Source: Prevotella sp. (GTDB lineage Bacteria; Bacteroidota; Bacteroidia; Bacteroidales; Bacteroidaceae). From it: a stretch of DNA of 64,000 nucleotides. Every line of letters begins with the position of its first letter. Position 1 is the stretch's first letter. The translations under genes and the position numbers were made by a program. The notes beneath the pieces were generated by a model. It saw only the letters and a list, made by a program, of their open reading frames with translations, had not been told where the DNA came from and made no database searches. Positions 44,888-63,461 of the stretch are shown here, piece by piece. Location: positions 1 to 64,000 of the forward strand of contig JAGAYI010000008.1 in assembly GCA_017940545.1 (NCBI GenBank). The letters run 5' to 3'.

Positions 44888-45058
44888 AAAGTGCCGCCTT
44901 CTGCCCCAGAAAACGGCACTTTCACTGTGTGTAAACGGCACTTGCAACCTGTAAAAGTGCCGTTTACACAACGTCTAAGTGCCGTTTACACAACGTCTAA
45001 GCGCCGTTTGCACAACTTCTAAGCGCCGTTTGCACTAAGCGGCGTTTGCAGCCAGTCA
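44888..45058. repeat. array of GTGCCGTTT-type repeats, 22 bp period
   Basis: Direct units start at 44955, 44977, 44999 and 45021 (first two identical, aagtgccgtttacacaacgt plus ct), then 45037. Before them are inverted copies: AAAGTGCCG (44888-44896) with CGGCACTTT (44914-44922), and TGTGTAAACGGCACTT (44928-44943) with AAGTGCCGTTTACACA (44955-44970), a perfect 16 bp hairpin. No spacers, so not a CRISPR array. No open frame. It shares the 11-mer CGCCGTTTGCA with the array at 61212-61341. Confidence 0.85.
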
Positions 45059-45145
45059 AGTAACCGTAAAAAATAGATTGTTACTATTATAATTTCTGAT
45101 TATTTTCTGGCACTTTCTTTCCATTCAAAAAAATCAAGCATATCC

Positions 45146-45177
45146 TTTTGCGTTTCCGTTTTTTCTTCGTATCTTTG
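45146..45177 (+). promoter_or_regulatory. promoter of structured RNA A
   Basis: TTTTG (45146-45150), 19 bases, TATCTTTG (45170-45177): an exact match to the Bacteroidetes pattern with no coding gene on the plus strand within the next kilobase. Confidence 0.75.
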
Positions 45178-45183
45178 CAACAC

Positions 45184-45405
45184 CGTATATTGTGGGTAGT
45201 GGCCTGCAGCGCGGCAACTTATCGGTAAAATGAAGCGTTGTGCTTCTGTCTTGTGTGTTGAAACCTGAGAAATTTCAAGAATAGTCAAGATGGAGTGACA
45301 ATGGTTCACGCTTTAGGCGTGGCCTGTTATTTCTATGTCTTCCTATTCGGGTTTTCTCAGGACCTCAACACTGGGATGTGGAGCGTATCAGTTCCACGCT
45401 TCTGA
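45184..45405 (+). ncRNA. candidate structured RNA, copy A
   Basis: Expected start near 45184. Core rod: GTGTTGA (45255-45261)/TCAACAC (45365-45371), CCTGAGAAA (45264-45272)/TTTCTCAGG (45353-45361), GAATAG (45279-45284)/CTATTC (45343-45348), tip CACGC-tttag-GCGTG (45307-45321). A side hairpin GAAGC/GCTTC is at 45232-45246. An ATG follows the rod at 45376 (nine codons). The end of the RNA is not defined. The same plan recurs at 63196-63422. I know no matching family with certainty; 6S RNA and the Bacteroidales-1 RNA should be excluded. From 45406 to 45557 nothing else is seen. Confidence 0.6.
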
Positions 45406-45557
45406 CGTATTAACTGGTTTCGAGGGATTGGAAGCCGTCTTATTTCTATAGTTTAGGAAGAATCCCCTTGCTGACATCGAAGACGAAGAAGAGGAATAGA
45501 ATCATAACAACAACAATATTATATACATTAAGGTAGTTACTCTGTTTCAAGCGGAAA

Positions 45558-45607
45558 CAACACAATCGCCCGGCTGGCCGTGAGGCCCGCCGGGCGGACG
45601 TGTGTTG
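45558..45607 (-). terminator. terminator after the LuxR/STAS/SpoIIE operon
   Basis: Outer arms CAACACA (45558-45564)/TGTGTTG (45601-45607) and inner arms CGCCCGGC (45567-45574)/GCCGGGCG (45589-45596). It lies 22 bases past the LuxR gene stop on the minus strand; the trailing T content is modest. Confidence 0.65.
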
Positions 45608-45628
45608 CATAGCCGTGCCGTTGCTGCA

Positions 45629-46225
45629 CTATATCTTGTTGATATCCACGTAGCCGTGCATGACGGCATAGATGGTGAGGGCCGACACACTCTTGAAGCC
45701 CAGCTTGTCCATGATGTTTTTGCGGTGGGTGACCACGGTGGCAAGGCTGATGCAGAGGCGCTCGGCTATCTCCTTGTTGATGAAGCCCTGCACAATGAGC
45801 GACATGACCTCTATCTCGCGGTCGGTGAGCAGCTTCTGCTCCAGCACCGGTGGCATGGGGGGCAGGTTGCGTCCGCCGCCGTGGGCGTGCTGAACCATCA
45901 TGAGCAGCTGGCGCACCAACTGCTTCTCGGGCTGGTTGATGCAGAGCGCGTGGAACTCGCTGAGCTGCGAGGTGTCGCCCAGCGAGAGTGTCAGCACAAT
46001 GGTCTTCCGGCGGTGCTCAGAGAAGAACGCCCGCTGCTGCAGCACAATGTTCATGGACACGAAGTAGTGGACGAAACGCTCGGGGGCGTCCGCCTGGAAC
46101 TCGCCGAAGGAGCCGTAGGTCTCGACGGTCATGATGGGCATGACGTGCTGCAGCATCTGCTTCAGGCCTACTGCTGCCAGGGTGTTGGCATCGACGATGG
46201 CTATGAGTGGCCGGCTGTAGTGCAT
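45629..46225 (-). CDS. LuxR-family regulator with a pseudo-receiver
   Basis: A 198-residue protein. Residues 1-115 resemble a receiver (PLIAIVDANTLAAVGLKQML) but the strand where the phospho-Asp belongs reads HYFVSMNI, so phosphorylation is unlikely. Residues 130-195 are a LuxR/GerE helix-turn-helix (LTDREIEVMSLIVQGFINKEIA). It is the last gene after SpoIIE and STAS and may be an output of that switch or of protein contact. Its HTH resembles that of the di-iron regulator at 42898-43857. Confidence 0.88.
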   Translation of the reverse strand: MHYSRPLIAIVDANTLAAVGLKQMLQHVMPIMTVETYGSFGEFQADAPERFVHYFVSMNIVLQQRAFFSEHRRKTIVLTLSLGDTSQLSEFHALCINQPEKQLVRQLLMMVQHAHGGGRNLPPMPPVLEQKLLTDREIEVMSLIVQGFINKEIAERLCISLATVVTHRKNIMDKLGFKSVSALTIYAVMHGYVDINKI

Positions 46226-46232
46226 GGTGCTG

Positions 46233-46535
46233 TCACTTGATGTCGAAGAGGTTGAAGAAGCCCGTCATCATGAACACCTTGCGTATTTCTTCGTTGATGT
46301 TTTCAATGATGACCTTTCCGTTTTTCAACTGTGCCTCCTTGCGCACGGCGAGGAACAGGCGGAGTCCGGAACTGCTGATGTATTCCAGATGGGTGCAGTC
46401 GAGAACAATGGTTTTGTCAGCATTCTCAATGAGGGGCTGAAAGTCTTTCTGTGCGCTGACTGCCGCGGGGGTGTCGAGTCGGCCGACAAGGCTGGCAGTA
46501 AGTCCGTTGCTGTTGTTTTGAATATTAATTTCCAT
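46233..46535 (-). CDS. STAS-domain anti-sigma factor antagonist
   Basis: A 100-residue single STAS domain. The phosphorylation loop is LEYISSSGLRLFLAVRK with the usual serine. In partner switching it is phosphorylated by a HATPase kinase and dephosphorylated by a PP2C phosphatase; both activities are predicted in the gene just upstream. It ends 7 bases before the LuxR gene starts. Confidence 0.93.
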   Translation of the reverse strand: MEINIQNNSNGLTASLVGRLDTPAAVSAQKDFQPLIENADKTIVLDCTHLEYISSSGLRLFLAVRKEAQLKNGKVIIENINEEIRKVFMMTGFFNLFDIK

Positions 46536-46590: not shown

Positions 46591-48996
46591 CTACGCCTGC
46601 TGCTGCGGTGTGGTGAGGTTCTTGATGAGTGTCAGCGTGTTGACGTCGTTGATGCGCTCGTAGTTGACGGCATCCATGATTTTGCGCACCAGGAATATTC
46701 CCAGTCCGCCAATGGGTCGCTCCTTGACACCTAAGGTGATGTCGGCCTCCTCCTGTGCGGTGGGGTCGAAGGGCTGTCCCTCGTCGGTAATGATGAACTT
46801 CAGCTGTTGGTCGGTCAGCAGTGCGTCAATGCTGACGTGCCCCTCGCTGCCGTTGGGGTAGGCGTAGAGGATGACGTTGGTGACTGCTTCTTCGACGGCC
46901 AGGTTGAGGCTCATGGTTAGTGACATGTCGAGGCCTGCCTCGTCTCCTATTTCTTCCAAAAAGGCAGCGAGCTTGGAAATCTCTTCTACTTGATTGAGTA
47001 AGGTCAGTTTCTTTTCCATCTTTATCTCGTGTTGGGGACTACAATATTTGACAATGAGCATGGTGAGGTCGTCGCTTTGCTCGGCGCCGCCGGCATGCTG
47101 GCTGACGACGTTCTCCATGAATTCTATTTGTTGCCTGGGCGATGCATGGCGCACCTCCCTGAGTTTCTCAAGCACCTGCTCGTCGCCCAGCTCCTGGTGG
47201 TCGGCGTCCTCGGCCTCGTTGAGCCCGTCGGTAAAAAGGAAGATGCTTGCATTGGGCGACATCACGGTTTCCTGCCCCTCGTATTTGCTGTCTTCAAAGG
47301 CTCCGATGGGCAGGTTGGGGCGCACCTCAATGTAGTGCACGTCGTCGCCGTTGATGGCGATGGGGGCGTTGTGGCCTCCGTTGCAGAAGCGGAGCCGTCC
47401 TGTGGGCAGGTCGAGCACTCCGACAAAGAGTGTGACGAACATGCATGAGTCGTTGTCGTGGCTCATGGTCTCGTTGATGTGGGTGATGATTCTGGCGGGG
47501 TTGCTCTCGTGGGTGGAGAGTGTGCGGAACATGGCTCTGGTGAAGGCCATGAGCAGCGAGGCGGGTATGCCCTTTCCGCTGACGTCGCCGATGCAGAAGA
47601 AGAGCTTTTCGTCGCGGATGTAGTAGTCGTACAGGTCGCCGCCCACCTCCTTGGCAGGCGACAGCCAGGCGTAGATGTCGATGTCGTCGCGCTCGGGGAA
47701 GGGCGGGAAGCGCTTTGGCAGCATGGACATCTGAATCCTGTGGGCCGTGAGCAGTTCACCCTCTATGCGGCCCTTGGCTTCGTTGACGGTCTTCAGCTCC
47801 TCGATGTGCGACGTCAGTGACTTCTGCATGGCGGTGAACGAGTCGTGCAGAAGGCGCATCTCGTCCTTCGACATGATGTAGGGCAGCGGGGTCTTGAAGT
47901 TGCCGCGGGCTATCTCGTCGGCCGACCGTGCGAACAGCCTGAGGGGCTTGGTGGTTCTGTGGATGGCGACGTGGCACACAAAGGCCACGATGATGAGACC
48001 GAGTACAATGATGATTGCGAAGGTAAGAATCAGCGCATTGATGACGCCCGTGAAGTCGTCGAAGGGCGTGATGACGGCTATCGCCCAGTTGGTGTTCCTG
48101 ACGGGGCTGTGGTGAACAAACTGTATCTGGTTGTTTTGCTTGAAGGTGGAAAAACCATCCTGGGCGCTGAGAATGTTGGCCACGACGGTGGTGTCGTTGC
48201 TGCCATCGCAGGTACGGCGGATGTAGTCGAAGATGGTTTTGTCATTGGCGGTCTGTTTGGTGTCAGAGGCAATGAAGTTGCCCTTCTGTGTGATGATGAA
48301 ACTGTGAGAGTTTCCATGAGTAAACGTTGGCATGGCACCTTTGTTGTTGAAGATGCTGTCCATCTGCGAGCGTAGCTCTGACAGCCAGTCGAGCGAGATG
48401 TCGGCCGTCAGGGTGGCATACTGCCTGCCCTGTTTGTCGAAGAGGGGTGGGGAGTAGGTGACCATTCCCATGTTGCCTCCGCCGGTGTCTATGTAAGGTT
48501 CGCTCCAGTAGCCCTGGCCCTTTTCCTTTGCCTGCAGGTACCATTCGCGGTGAAGGTAGTCGTAATCGGGCGTGCCCAACTGCTTGGTGTGTACACCGGT
48601 GCTGTCGTTATAGGCGTAAGGAGCGAACGTGGCGCCCTTTTGTGGAAAATAGTTCGGCTCGAAGGCCACGGCCGAGCCGGTGATGTAGGGGTTCAGCGTG
48701 ACGATGTTTTCGACGACGGAGTAAAGGGCGTCAGGGTTCGATAGGCGCTCCTCCACCTCGGGAACATAGTTCTGCAGGGTTATTTCAACGGCCGTGAGCG
48801 GCTGGCTGATGCGCTCCTCGGCCACGTCTAAGTTGGTCTGGAAGAAGATGGCAAGCATGGCGGTTCCCGTTGACCACAGGAGGCCCAAAATGACAGCGAT
48901 AATGACGTCCATAATGATGAACACCGTCAGCGTGACACGCCAGGTAAGACGGGTGGATATGGAGCGTGAGGGTCTGAAGTAATTAAGAATCTTCAT
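46591..48996 (-). CDS. SpoIIE-type phosphatase with sensor and fused HATPase kinase domain
   Basis: An 801-residue membrane protein: helix (about 20-45), periplasmic Cache-like sensor (46-310, with AFEPNYFPQKGATFAPYAY and YLQAKEKGQGYWSEPYIDTGGG read in part), second helix (about 315-340), HAMP, PP2C/SpoIIE domain (about 430-640, AWLSPAKEVGGDLYDYY and CIGDVSGKGIPASLLMA with metal Asp residues), then a RsbW-like HATPase (about 665-800, NLAVEEAVTNVILYAY, ITDEGQPFDP, GGLGIFLVRKIMD). It combines both opposing enzymes for the STAS partner. The signal is unknown; the Cache fold often binds small molecules. Confidence 0.92.
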   Translation of the reverse strand: MKILNYFRPSRSISTRLTWRVTLTVFIIMDVIIAVILGLLWSTGTAMLAIFFQTNLDVAEERISQPLTAVEITLQNYVPEVEERLSNPDALYSVVENIVTLNPYITGSAVAFEPNYFPQKGATFAPYAYNDSTGVHTKQLGTPDYDYLHREWYLQAKEKGQGYWSEPYIDTGGGNMGMVTYSPPLFDKQGRQYATLTADISLDWLSELRSQMDSIFNNKGAMPTFTHGNSHSFIITQKGNFIASDTKQTANDKTIFDYIRRTCDGSNDTTVVANILSAQDGFSTFKQNNQIQFVHHSPVRNTNWAIAVITPFDDFTGVINALILTFAIIIVLGLIIVAFVCHVAIHRTTKPLRLFARSADEIARGNFKTPLPYIMSKDEMRLLHDSFTAMQKSLTSHIEELKTVNEAKGRIEGELLTAHRIQMSMLPKRFPPFPERDDIDIYAWLSPAKEVGGDLYDYYIRDEKLFFCIGDVSGKGIPASLLMAFTRAMFRTLSTHESNPARIITHINETMSHDNDSCMFVTLFVGVLDLPTGRLRFCNGGHNAPIAINGDDVHYIEVRPNLPIGAFEDSKYEGQETVMSPNASIFLFTDGLNEAEDADHQELGDEQVLEKLREVRHASPRQQIEFMENVVSQHAGGAEQSDDLTMLIVKYCSPQHEIKMEKKLTLLNQVEEISKLAAFLEEIGDEAGLDMSLTMSLNLAVEEAVTNVILYAYPNGSEGHVSIDALLTDQQLKFIITDEGQPFDPTAQEEADITLGVKERPIGGLGIFLVRKIMDAVNYERINDVNTLTLIKNLTTPQQQA

Positions 48997-62083: not shown

Positions 62084-63121
62084 TCAATAGATAGGAACCT
62101 TTTTAGTTTCCCATTCAGATTGAGGTATCATGATTCCGGCTTTCCTTGCTTTATTCCGCCATTTCGCCATCTCTTTTTGTGCGTTACGAAGGAGTTCCAT
62201 ATTTTTTTGATATGTTACAGTTCCACCGCTATGTCCTGCAAGAGAATTATATACATTCTGGGCTTGTTTCTCCCATTTTCGATACATCGTTTCGTAATTG
62301 CCGCCAGAAGATGAATTGCTACCACTGCTATAAGACGAAGAGCCATAATAACCTGAGCTATAATTCTGATTTGCCTCTACTGCACTTGACCATGCGCTGG
62401 CTGCAGCACCGCCAACCGTTACAATTGTCAGAAGCGTTGCCCCGACATATCTCCATGCACTTGACTTGAAACGAATGCCAAGCGTGGCCATTACTACGGG
62501 TTTGTTTTCGTCTTTATATCCTTTATAGAAACAAGGTATATTGTAAGTTGCACCAAGACTTAAGCATTTCCAGTTGATGGCAACAGAGGGTTCTAAACCA
62601 ACTTGTAGCTGGTCACCCCATTTCGAATCACTCCAGCCATTATTCGTGTTGTTTTCATTTCGATAAAATCTCCAACTGCCGTCAGGTATAAAAGACATGT
62701 ATGGGCCAACTCCGACATGAAGTGAAAAGTCTTTACCAAGTGGTTGCTTATATGTCAGGCGTAATGGCAATTCTATAAGGCTCTTGGCTTCGAATTGTCT
62801 GTTCTCTGTTTGTGTATAAGAACTGCCAACTGTTTTTATCGTGTATTCATTCTCTACAAATGAATGGTGCCTCTTATAACGCAGTCCTGTTTCCAGATTC
62901 AACTTGTCATTAAGCGGAATTTCTATTCCCAAGCCCGCCATCCATTCCTGGAAATTTTCCTTCTCCCTGTTGTCGCTACTATGGGTATCATAGAAGTACG
63001 CTTCACGGGACATCCAACCACCTTTCAAGTTCCACATTACCTGCGACTTAGCCGTAGCGAACAACACCATAAAGAGGATTGCAAAGGTTCCTCGTTTTCT
63101 AAAAAATCCATCATTCTTCAT
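62084..63121 (-). CDS. outer-membrane beta-barrel protein with Ser-rich linker and C-terminal helices
   Basis: A 345-residue protein with a signal (residues 1-27, ending ATAKSQ). Residues about 28-215 show alternating barrel strands (WNLKGGWMSREAYFY, GLGIEIPLNDKLNLETGLRY) as in outer-membrane beta-barrel families of Bacteroidetes. Then comes a hydrophobic stretch (YVGATLLTIVTVGGAAASAW), a Ser/Tyr/Gly linker, and a charged helical tail. A membrane helix after a barrel is unusual. The start at 63121 is chosen; the frame extends to 63199. A short leader frame overlaps its ATG (ATGA) and a structured RNA lies upstream. Function unknown. Confidence 0.8.
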   Translation of the reverse strand: MKNDGFFRKRGTFAILFMVLFATAKSQVMWNLKGGWMSREAYFYDTHSSDNREKENFQEWMAGLGIEIPLNDKLNLETGLRYKRHHSFVENEYTIKTVGSSYTQTENRQFEAKSLIELPLRLTYKQPLGKDFSLHVGVGPYMSFIPDGSWRFYRNENNTNNGWSDSKWGDQLQVGLEPSVAINWKCLSLGATYNIPCFYKGYKDENKPVVMATLGIRFKSSAWRYVGATLLTIVTVGGAAASAWSSAVEANQNYSSGYYGSSSYSSGSNSSSGGNYETMYRKWEKQAQNVYNSLAGHSGGTVTYQKNMELLRNAQKEMAKWRNKARKAGIMIPQSEWETKKVPIY

Positions 63122-63189: not shown

Positions 63190-63195
63190 CCTTAT

Positions 63196-63422
63196 GCACT
63201 AAACCTTAGAGGCGAGCCTAGGAAAATTGGAACCCCTACTATCTAATAAGAATGCTCCACGCCATAAGCGTGTGCATAGCATATACAGATAGTCAGGTAT
63301 GCCCTTCCTCAGGCTTTCCCCTTGCTTCGTCTTTCGACCATTCCAAATTAAGTTTCCTAGGCTTCTTCGGTTTAGTGCGAAATAAAAGCTAATGCATCTC
63401 TGACTCGGGATTTCTCCCCAAA
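63196..63422 (-). ncRNA. candidate structured RNA, copy B, leader of the barrel gene
   Basis: Transcript expected to start near 63422 with hairpin GGGA-GAAA-TCCC (63407-63418, read on minus). Nested stems (plus coordinates): 63196-63205/63369-63378 (10 bp, perfect), 63217-63225/63353-63361 (9 bp), 63227-63232/63341-63346 (6 bp), 63238-63244/63287-63293 (7 bp), tip 63252-63277 (ATGC, CACGC-cataa-GCGTG, GCAT). A GTC-GAAA-GAC hairpin lies in the 5' side. It shares the stem words and order with RNA A. Confidence 0.6.
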
Positions 63423-63428
63423 TCGCTA

Positions 63429-63461
63429 CAAAGATAGTGAAAAAATTTCAAACAACTGCAA
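63429..63461 (-). promoter_or_regulatory. promoter of RNA B and the barrel gene
   Basis: On the minus strand, TTG (63459-63461), 22 bases (long), TATCTTTG (63429-63436), the same -7 word as RNA A's promoter. Confidence 0.5.

Follow-up and report, generated by a model that had tools for sequence, protein, structure and literature searches.

c-di-GMP riboswitches are signal-sensing RNAs that serve many unrelated target genes. Structured RNAs are also described from the Bacteroidota, among them the Bacteroidales-1, Flavo-1 and 6S RNAs. As portrayed in the available part of PMC11697453, FopS is a multi-copy sRNA family of the Bacteroidaceae with its own promoters, which is built of a single-stranded 5' stretch and a terminator and acts in trans on susC-like mRNAs; the same part presents RbpB as a global RNA binder in Bacteroides thetaiotaomicron. 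In this species the roc mRNA leader controls its gene independently of the promoter (PMC10294740, available part). Fremin and Bhatt (2021) reported thousands of candidate RNAs from bacteria of the human microbiome, Bacteroidetes included (PMC8040213, available part).

The window analysed here, i.e. the whole stretch of 64,000 nucleotides of a Prevotella sp. contig, holds at 45229-45403 on the plus strand the core of an RNA that we call locus A, and its relatives are referred to as family A. Like Bacteroidales-1, Flavo-1 and 6S RNA it is a structured RNA of Bacteroidota, but it has no model match with any of them. A scan of the whole window and 16 loci against Rfam 15 at gathering scores returned, besides chance-level matches, only a tRNA in one of the loci (L293). 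With open E-values, chance-level matches were all that was obtained for A, for two relatives and for B, a second locus of the window. The first-pass annotation had named an Rfam match, 6S RNA and Bacteroidales-1 included, as what would speak against a new RNA; no such match was found for A, so novelty is not refuted. Bacteroidales-1 and Flavo-1 were rejected as identities since their model match is absent in A and in the relatives scanned. Family A is not described in the literature searched, as far as the available main-text passages go (including PMC7366714, PMC2864571, PMC7160235 and PMC10994844), and a term search of PMC11109978 found no mention. Relative to Rfam 15 and to these passages, family A is new as far as was seen. 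Overlap with the candidates of Fremin and Bhatt is possible, their models being kept in supplements (PMC8040213, available part). By description, rather than by sequence, family A resembles roc in being an mRNA leader (PMC10294740, available part).

Locus A was recognized with a covariance model, R1, whose seed consists of 11 BLAST relatives and excludes A itself. The match covers model positions 1-171 with an E-value of 4.4e-28 and 112 bits, and in folding the locus is more stable than all of 200 shuffles (z -3.4). Clearly, locus A is a real RNA, beyond chance. A promoter had been noticed ahead of it in the first-pass annotation, and it is indeed present at 45147-45177, where TTTG (45147-45150) is followed after 19 nt by TATCTTTG (45170-45177). 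Immediately 5' of this promoter, tandem units resembling AAGTGCCGTTTACACAACGTCT occupy 44930-45060. Between promoter and core the transcript carries a variable 5' hairpin (45182-45226, outer pairing ACCGTATA / TATCGGT). Some relatives have, by eye, comparable hairpins of different sequence upstream of the RNA.

The core is a rod of nested stems, which had been pointed out from the letters together with their tip and which are present as proposed. P1 pairs GAAGC (45232-45236) with 45398-45402, P2 pairs TGTGTTG (45254-45260) with CAACACT (45366-45372, including one U-U), P3 pairs CCTGAGAAA (45264-45272) with TTTCTCAGG (45353-45361) and P4 pairs GAATAG (45279-45284) with CTATTC (45343-45348); P5 (TGACA / TGTTA) and the P6 tip CACGC-TTTAG-GCGTG (tip 45307-45321) fill 45296-45329. 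Just before P2 lies CTTG (45250-45253), the 5' strand of a pseudoknot, PK1, with its partner CAAG at 45286-45289. Near the 3' end a heptamer, CAGTTCC (45389-45395), can pair with the loop GGGATTG (45424-45430) of a downstream hairpin, P8 (GGTTTC-(GA)GGGATTG-GAAGCC, 45416-45436), to form PK8, or partly with the P7 strand GTGGA (45378-45382). Covariation backs P1 to P6 (for P1 together with the sequence, for P5 and P6 with the fold), partner permutation backs PK1, and pairing counts back the heptamer and, with the sequence, P8. An ATG behind the rod had been noted as well. In A it falls in GATGTGG (ATG at 45376-45378), a stretch that relatives have as GACGTGG, GAAGTGG or similar; it does not hold as a start, and a leader peptide beginning at 45376 was rejected because the ATG is not conserved among the relatives.

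There is strong support for the proposal that A is a member of an RNA family whose pairing is under selection, as covariation lies far above shuffles and column permutations. In an alignment of 100 members, from which 24 antisense shadow matches were excluded, 93.0% of 4422 cells are standard pairs against 74.5% in shuffles, and two-sided changes amount to 865 cells against 261. The covariation score is 0.555, compared to 0.197 in shuffles and at most 0.100 in slid versions. Two-sided changes are seen in 37 of the 45 model pairs; for the P1 helix they occur in 5 of 6 pairs, with 87.7% of cells paired. The R1 structure is partly hand-set and the alignment is fitted to the model, which biases these pair counts. 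Nevertheless, the controls fall well short of the observed effect. In an unconstrained scan of all column pairs, all 15 top scores are model pairs, the best one reaching 138.7 against maxima of 14 to 19 in five column-permuted sets. The fold of family A, comprising P1 to P6 and pseudoknots, is massively covarying.

The pairing also bears on the nature of the molecule. Copies of family A are numerous, dispersed and near-palindromic, leading to weak matches on the other strand, as would be expected of a DNA element such as a recombination site or palindromic repeat. On the sense strand, however, there are 421 G-U cells against 102 C-A cells, an excess indicating that it is the sense strand that pairs, as RNA. 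Moreover, sense scores are far above antisense scores, and promoter and gene mostly stand in a fixed orientation to the RNA. A DNA element is thus hardly credible, and we treat family A as RNA in what follows.

The pseudoknots lie outside the R1 model. For PK1, which joins CTTG before P2 to CAAG after P4, none of 500 partner permutations reaches the observed score. Pairing at four bases is also seen for 93 of 99 permuted partners, and at five bases for 78 against 93 observed; since the common form CTTG/CAAG is so frequent, the support for PK1 comes from variants such as CTTGC/GCAAG and CTGT/ACAG. A second pairing, PK2 (J5/4 with J2/7), is supported only moderately: one of 500 permutations reaches the observed score at four bases and none at five, but a reversed-strand control pairs nearly as often (47 versus 53) and the best pair of the window copy is weak. 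A second switch, formed by a helix of J1/2 with J2/7, was rejected because 380 of 500 permutations reach the observed score. The P3 strands can each occupy the loop of a small hairpin (Ha, GAAA..TTTC; Hb, GGT..ACC); columns 31-45 and 30-46 of Ha covary to some degree, and Hb was judged by eye.

Family A is widespread in Bacteroidota. With A as BLAST query, relatives were recovered from its own genome and from 15 of 60 genus genomes, the longer matches being about 70-79% identical. In the own genome, which is 70%-complete, an R1 search (E up to 1) gives ten rows: two are antisense shadows, and the others are A and seven further sense-strand copies, two of them seed members. R1 matches are present in 105 of 150 genus genomes (E up to 0.01; some of these supplied the seed). 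At E up to 1e-4 they are found in 142 of 201 genomes of the family (24 of 30 genera), in 87 of 295 genomes of the order (59 of 184 genera) and in 21 of 345 phylum-drawn genomes, 19 of which lie outside the genome and family of the window; elsewhere in the class, further families have sparse matches. When named genomes were scanned by pattern, at least 117 stretches with family A were obtained. Paraprevotella xylaniphila YIT 11841 and Mediterranea massiliensis Marseille-P2645 are two of the carriers, and the genera and families among the matches listed are Prevotella, Paraprevotella, Bacteroides, Mediterranea, Parabacteroides, Muribaculaceae, Paludibacteraceae and Butyricimonas. A few listed matches are titled as other phyla (one Firmicutes bin and one Saccharibacteria bin) and may be mis-binned contigs. 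All 124 loci found by pattern only match R1 as well (E 1.1e-7 or better). Family A was also found on plasmids (seven records), on one phage record and on seven viral contigs. One locus (L258) holds two family A RNAs in tandem (254-406 and 458-631) before one gene, like tandem riboswitches.

The positions of promoters and genes are equally regular. A TAnnTTTG box, described in the available part of PMC9723704 as the -7 box of the main sigma factor of the phylum Bacteroidota, occurs at most 160 nt upstream in 127 of 144 distinct members, at a median of 42 nt before the RNA. Ten dinucleotide shuffles give a mean of 15.9 and a maximum of 24, and the reverse-strand control gives 27. Downstream, an ORF is present at 182 of 194 loci; in 168 cases its start lies 0-120 nt beyond the RNA, with a median of 54 and quartiles of 48-65. 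Among the 194 loci are exact doubles, which are either identical copies or a contig that two collections share; once these are removed, an ORF stands behind 163 of 175 loci, with 150 at 0-120 nt and again a median of 54. The missing protein gene that had been taken as a mark of A does therefore not apply to the family in general. Under a strict rule (at least 100 aa, 0-120 nt, doubles removed) the same strand scores 131 of 165 loci and the opposite strand, counted from the other end of the RNA, 7 of 158, or 147 of 182 and 8 of 174 with duplicates. Promoter box and ORF position together place family A in the 5' leader, behind a predicted promoter of its own; judged by these positions it is a 5' leader module. 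Since 131 of 165 distinct loci are followed by an ORF of 100 aa or more, it is not a stand-alone gene, and on this ground, besides the absence of an Rfam match, 6S RNA was rejected.

Locus A itself lies behind a promoter but is not followed by an ORF, and the strong inverted repeat CGCCCGGC / GCCGGGCG (45567-45596, between A and a convergent luxR-type gene), which is perhaps the end of the transcript, could terminate a free RNA. These properties would suit a small RNA acting in trans. The same-strand ORFs right behind most relatives argue against such a role for the family, and so does the fact that A retains P8 and PK8, the parts that face the start codon in relatives, so that we regard it as quite improbable. 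FopS in particular was rejected, as the single-stranded seed and terminator hairpin of its description (PMC11697453, available part) are not what the fold of A displays.

The genes behind family A leaders are unrelated: sorting the 182 downstream proteins by shared words gives 132 groups. Pfam was run on 125 proteins (the 7 shortest of the 132 groups omitted, proteins cut at 380 aa) and matched 82 families; among the best 25 of these, BspA-type LRR (13), other leucine-rich repeats (10) and Big_2 (8) lead. Single cases among the Pfam matches are DNA methylases, DUF6088, SNF2 and beta-lactamase. PADLOC gave 143 families, with one member each among the best 25. Ribosomal proteins are absent from the best 25 of the 82 Pfam families in these 125 proteins, and a ribosomal-protein leader was rejected given the 132 unrelated groups. 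What the genes have in common is mainly their predicted destination: a signal peptide or early membrane segment is seen in 70 of 103 downstream proteins against 117 of 486 neighbours (24%; Fisher p 6e-17), using a home-made, crude rule that counts membrane segments too. By eye, the seven ORFs behind 8 of nine distant members all have a hydrophobic signal-like start. The gene set does not match any metabolite.

Some of these genes deserve a separate mention. Of the 182 downstream genes, 22 form one family with the start MDFKDSI.QLAERV (L002, L013, L016, L018, L107 and others), spread over several species and in some loci followed by a membrane-protein gene. On plasmid pBUN1 of Bacteroides uniformis a family A leader (L231:3001-3170) lies 49 nt before the beta-lactamase gene MUN-1.

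If family A is such a shared leader switch, promoter, leader and gene may travel together in Bacteroidota, plasmids and viral contigs included. The presence on plasmids and viral contigs would also agree with a passive leader, i.e. a mobile cassette of promoter and leader that gives constant mRNA protection or a translation boost, as would the 132 unrelated groups, the narrow ORF distance and the leader's own promoter. Compensated pseudoknots, one of which is located beside the start codon, exceed the needs of a stabiliser, however, and we consider a purely passive role rather unlikely.

The pseudoknot beside the start codon is PK8. The heptamer, which precedes ACGCTTCT, is CAGTTCC both in the consensus and in A, and it is complementary to the loop of the P8 hairpin, which lies about 24 nt downstream of it, some 30 nt ahead of the start codon. 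In this the arrangement resembles an expression platform. For counting, 12 of the 194 loci were removed for having no ORF, 25 for an ORF outside 20-130 nt and 20 for lacking the anchor, which leaves 137 loci plus the window, 126 of them distinct. All seven bases pair in 66 of the 126, against a mean of 2.5 and a maximum of 7 in 200 letter-shuffled downstream stretches. In the other 60 the full pairing is absent, and P8 is seemingly missing in some (e.g. L109, L156 and L203). Among 57 loci with a variant heptamer, 16 pair all seven bases, compared to 4 when the consensus heptamer is substituted, and none of 1000 permutations of the heptamers among these loci reaches the observed mean. Compensatory pairs are CTGTTCC/GGAACAG (L165) and CAGCTCC/GGAGCTG (L145), and in L148, L208 and L219 the pairing is shorter on both sides. 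In most of 8 (of nine) distant loci PK8 is kept by eye in other letters, such as TAGTTCC/GGAACTA in L295, and in the window copy it is intact. The PK8 pairing is well supported. A P7 stem competing for the heptamer is weakly supported: two-sided changes occur in 0 to 3 of 100 sequences per pair, and the stem is broken in several members. As the heptamer shares three bases with the P7 stem, P7 and PK8 would exclude each other.

Two hallmarks of riboswitches are thus present in family A, namely a position in the 5' leader of an mRNA, according to the DNA positions, and a conserved, covarying, aptamer-like fold. We see it as an evenly balanced call that family A is a riboswitch-like translational leader. 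A signal would bind the pseudoknotted rod, and its binding would shift CAGUUCC between the P8 loop (PK8) and the leader's own stem (P7). The pairing of CAGUUCC with P8 just upstream of the start codon would then set translation initiation, up or down. P7 and PK8 would have to alternate in the cell, and the heptamer exchange would be what controls initiation. Since the genes share no pathway, the input would be a broadly used small signalling molecule and not the metabolite of a pathway.

Alternatively the leader may be bound by a protein, for example an RNA-binding protein of the phylum, which would set translation or stability of the mRNA. One leader for many unrelated genes is what a post-transcriptional regulon would look like, the internal-loop sequences are conserved within an otherwise variable rod, and RbpB of Bacteroides thetaiotaomicron (PMC11697453, available part) is a global RNA binder. 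The same source, in its available part, names FopS and other sRNAs but no comparable leader family, and we hold the protein-bound leader to be possible, though doubtful.

Under the riboswitch-like reading, as under any reading as a leader, the window copy is peculiar. As first noted, it stands without a protein gene: on the plus strand between the rod and the convergent luxR-type gene no ORF is longer than 22 aa, with the exception of a GTG-started frame of 212 aa (45602-46240) that runs antisense over that gene. The latter (45629-46225, minus strand) encodes a LuxR-type regulator with a GerE domain and is not the gene of A; next to this region lies, on the minus strand at 46591-48996, a SpoIIE-type phosphatase that carries both a sensor domain and an anti-sigma-like kinase domain (regulator and phosphatase assigned by domain match). 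The luxR-type gene is present in 50 of 60 genus genomes. Family A RNA was found beside it in none of 19 relatives (20 loci were returned, one being that of the window), of which 17 had the full 1500 nt per side, L285 slightly less and L282 only 316 nt downstream. Joint conservation of A with the luxR-type gene was therefore rejected. Because A keeps the core, P8 and PK8 without a gene behind them, we consider it a probable leader whose gene has been lost; the likeliest course is that the leader was inserted or moved here and the gene was lost since. Possibly, the window copy is a free RNA. Only a few other family A loci share the gene-less state of this copy. At L050, in the same genome (C18), nothing but an ORF of 32 codons follows the family A leader; it has a signal-like start and is perhaps a decayed gene, akin to the state of A.

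The second locus, B, had been put forward as another member of the RNA family of A on the plus strand, likewise with an ATG behind its rod. That a structured locus is present was correct, as B folds well (z -3.55, minus strand), but strand and family have to be revised. Promoter box (TATCTTTG, 63429-63436), homologues and gene are all on the minus strand, which places the proposed ATG on the wrong one. R1 does not list B in the own genome (E up to 1), and B has its own model, R2 (63192-63379, minus strand; E 1.5e-40, the copy being in the R2 seed). A single family was therefore rejected; there are two with a similar plan. The gene under the B leader (62084-63121, minus strand) starts with an ATG 70 nt after the RNA and encodes an outer-membrane beta-barrel protein of 345 aa (OMP_b-brl, E 1.4e-7).

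R2, with a seed of 13 sequences of which some come from the searched genus genomes, finds 2 copies in the own genome and has matches in 56 of the 150 genomes of the genus. Bounds were lacking for four of 18 B relatives, and L040 was omitted as wrongly bounded. In the 13 sequences, two-sided changes occur in 12 of 34 pairs, in P1 and other stems. Behind 27 distinct B leaders there are 12 proteins with a signal-like start, a few ORF choices being doubtful; other proteins include three EcoRI-type methylases and one HsdM-type methylase. As an EcoRI-type methylase follows a family A leader too (L122), one kind of target is common to both families. Family B is a leader family in its own right, analogous to family A.

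A bolder reading, which we hold to be less likely than not, is that A, across the phylum, and B are a pair of large pseudoknotted leader-switch RNAs. They would place unrelated surface, secreted, restriction-modification and resistance genes under one shared signal, read by a riboswitch for an unrecognised signal molecule, and so form a post-transcriptional global regulon for the cell surface and newly acquired genes. If the riboswitch-like role of family A is true, many exported-protein genes of gut, rumen and oral Bacteroidota would have one RNA switch in common. The control of such genes is otherwise mostly obscure, and the switch would offer a handle on how these bacteria alter their surface. 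The 7-base partner by the start codon makes compensatory-mutation tests simple.

Compared to the described systems, family A is like FopS a multi-copy RNA family with its own promoters in the same bacterial group, and differs from it in being pseudoknotted, about 170 nt long and located in leaders (FopS according to the available part of PMC11697453). Unlike orphan or c-di-GMP-like riboswitches, it has no Rfam match, and the genes behind it encode mostly predicted exported proteins of many families. Like these riboswitches, it combines a position as 5' leader with a conserved pseudoknotted core, covarying helices and unrelated genes, and a further likeness is the downstream hairpin close to the start codon.
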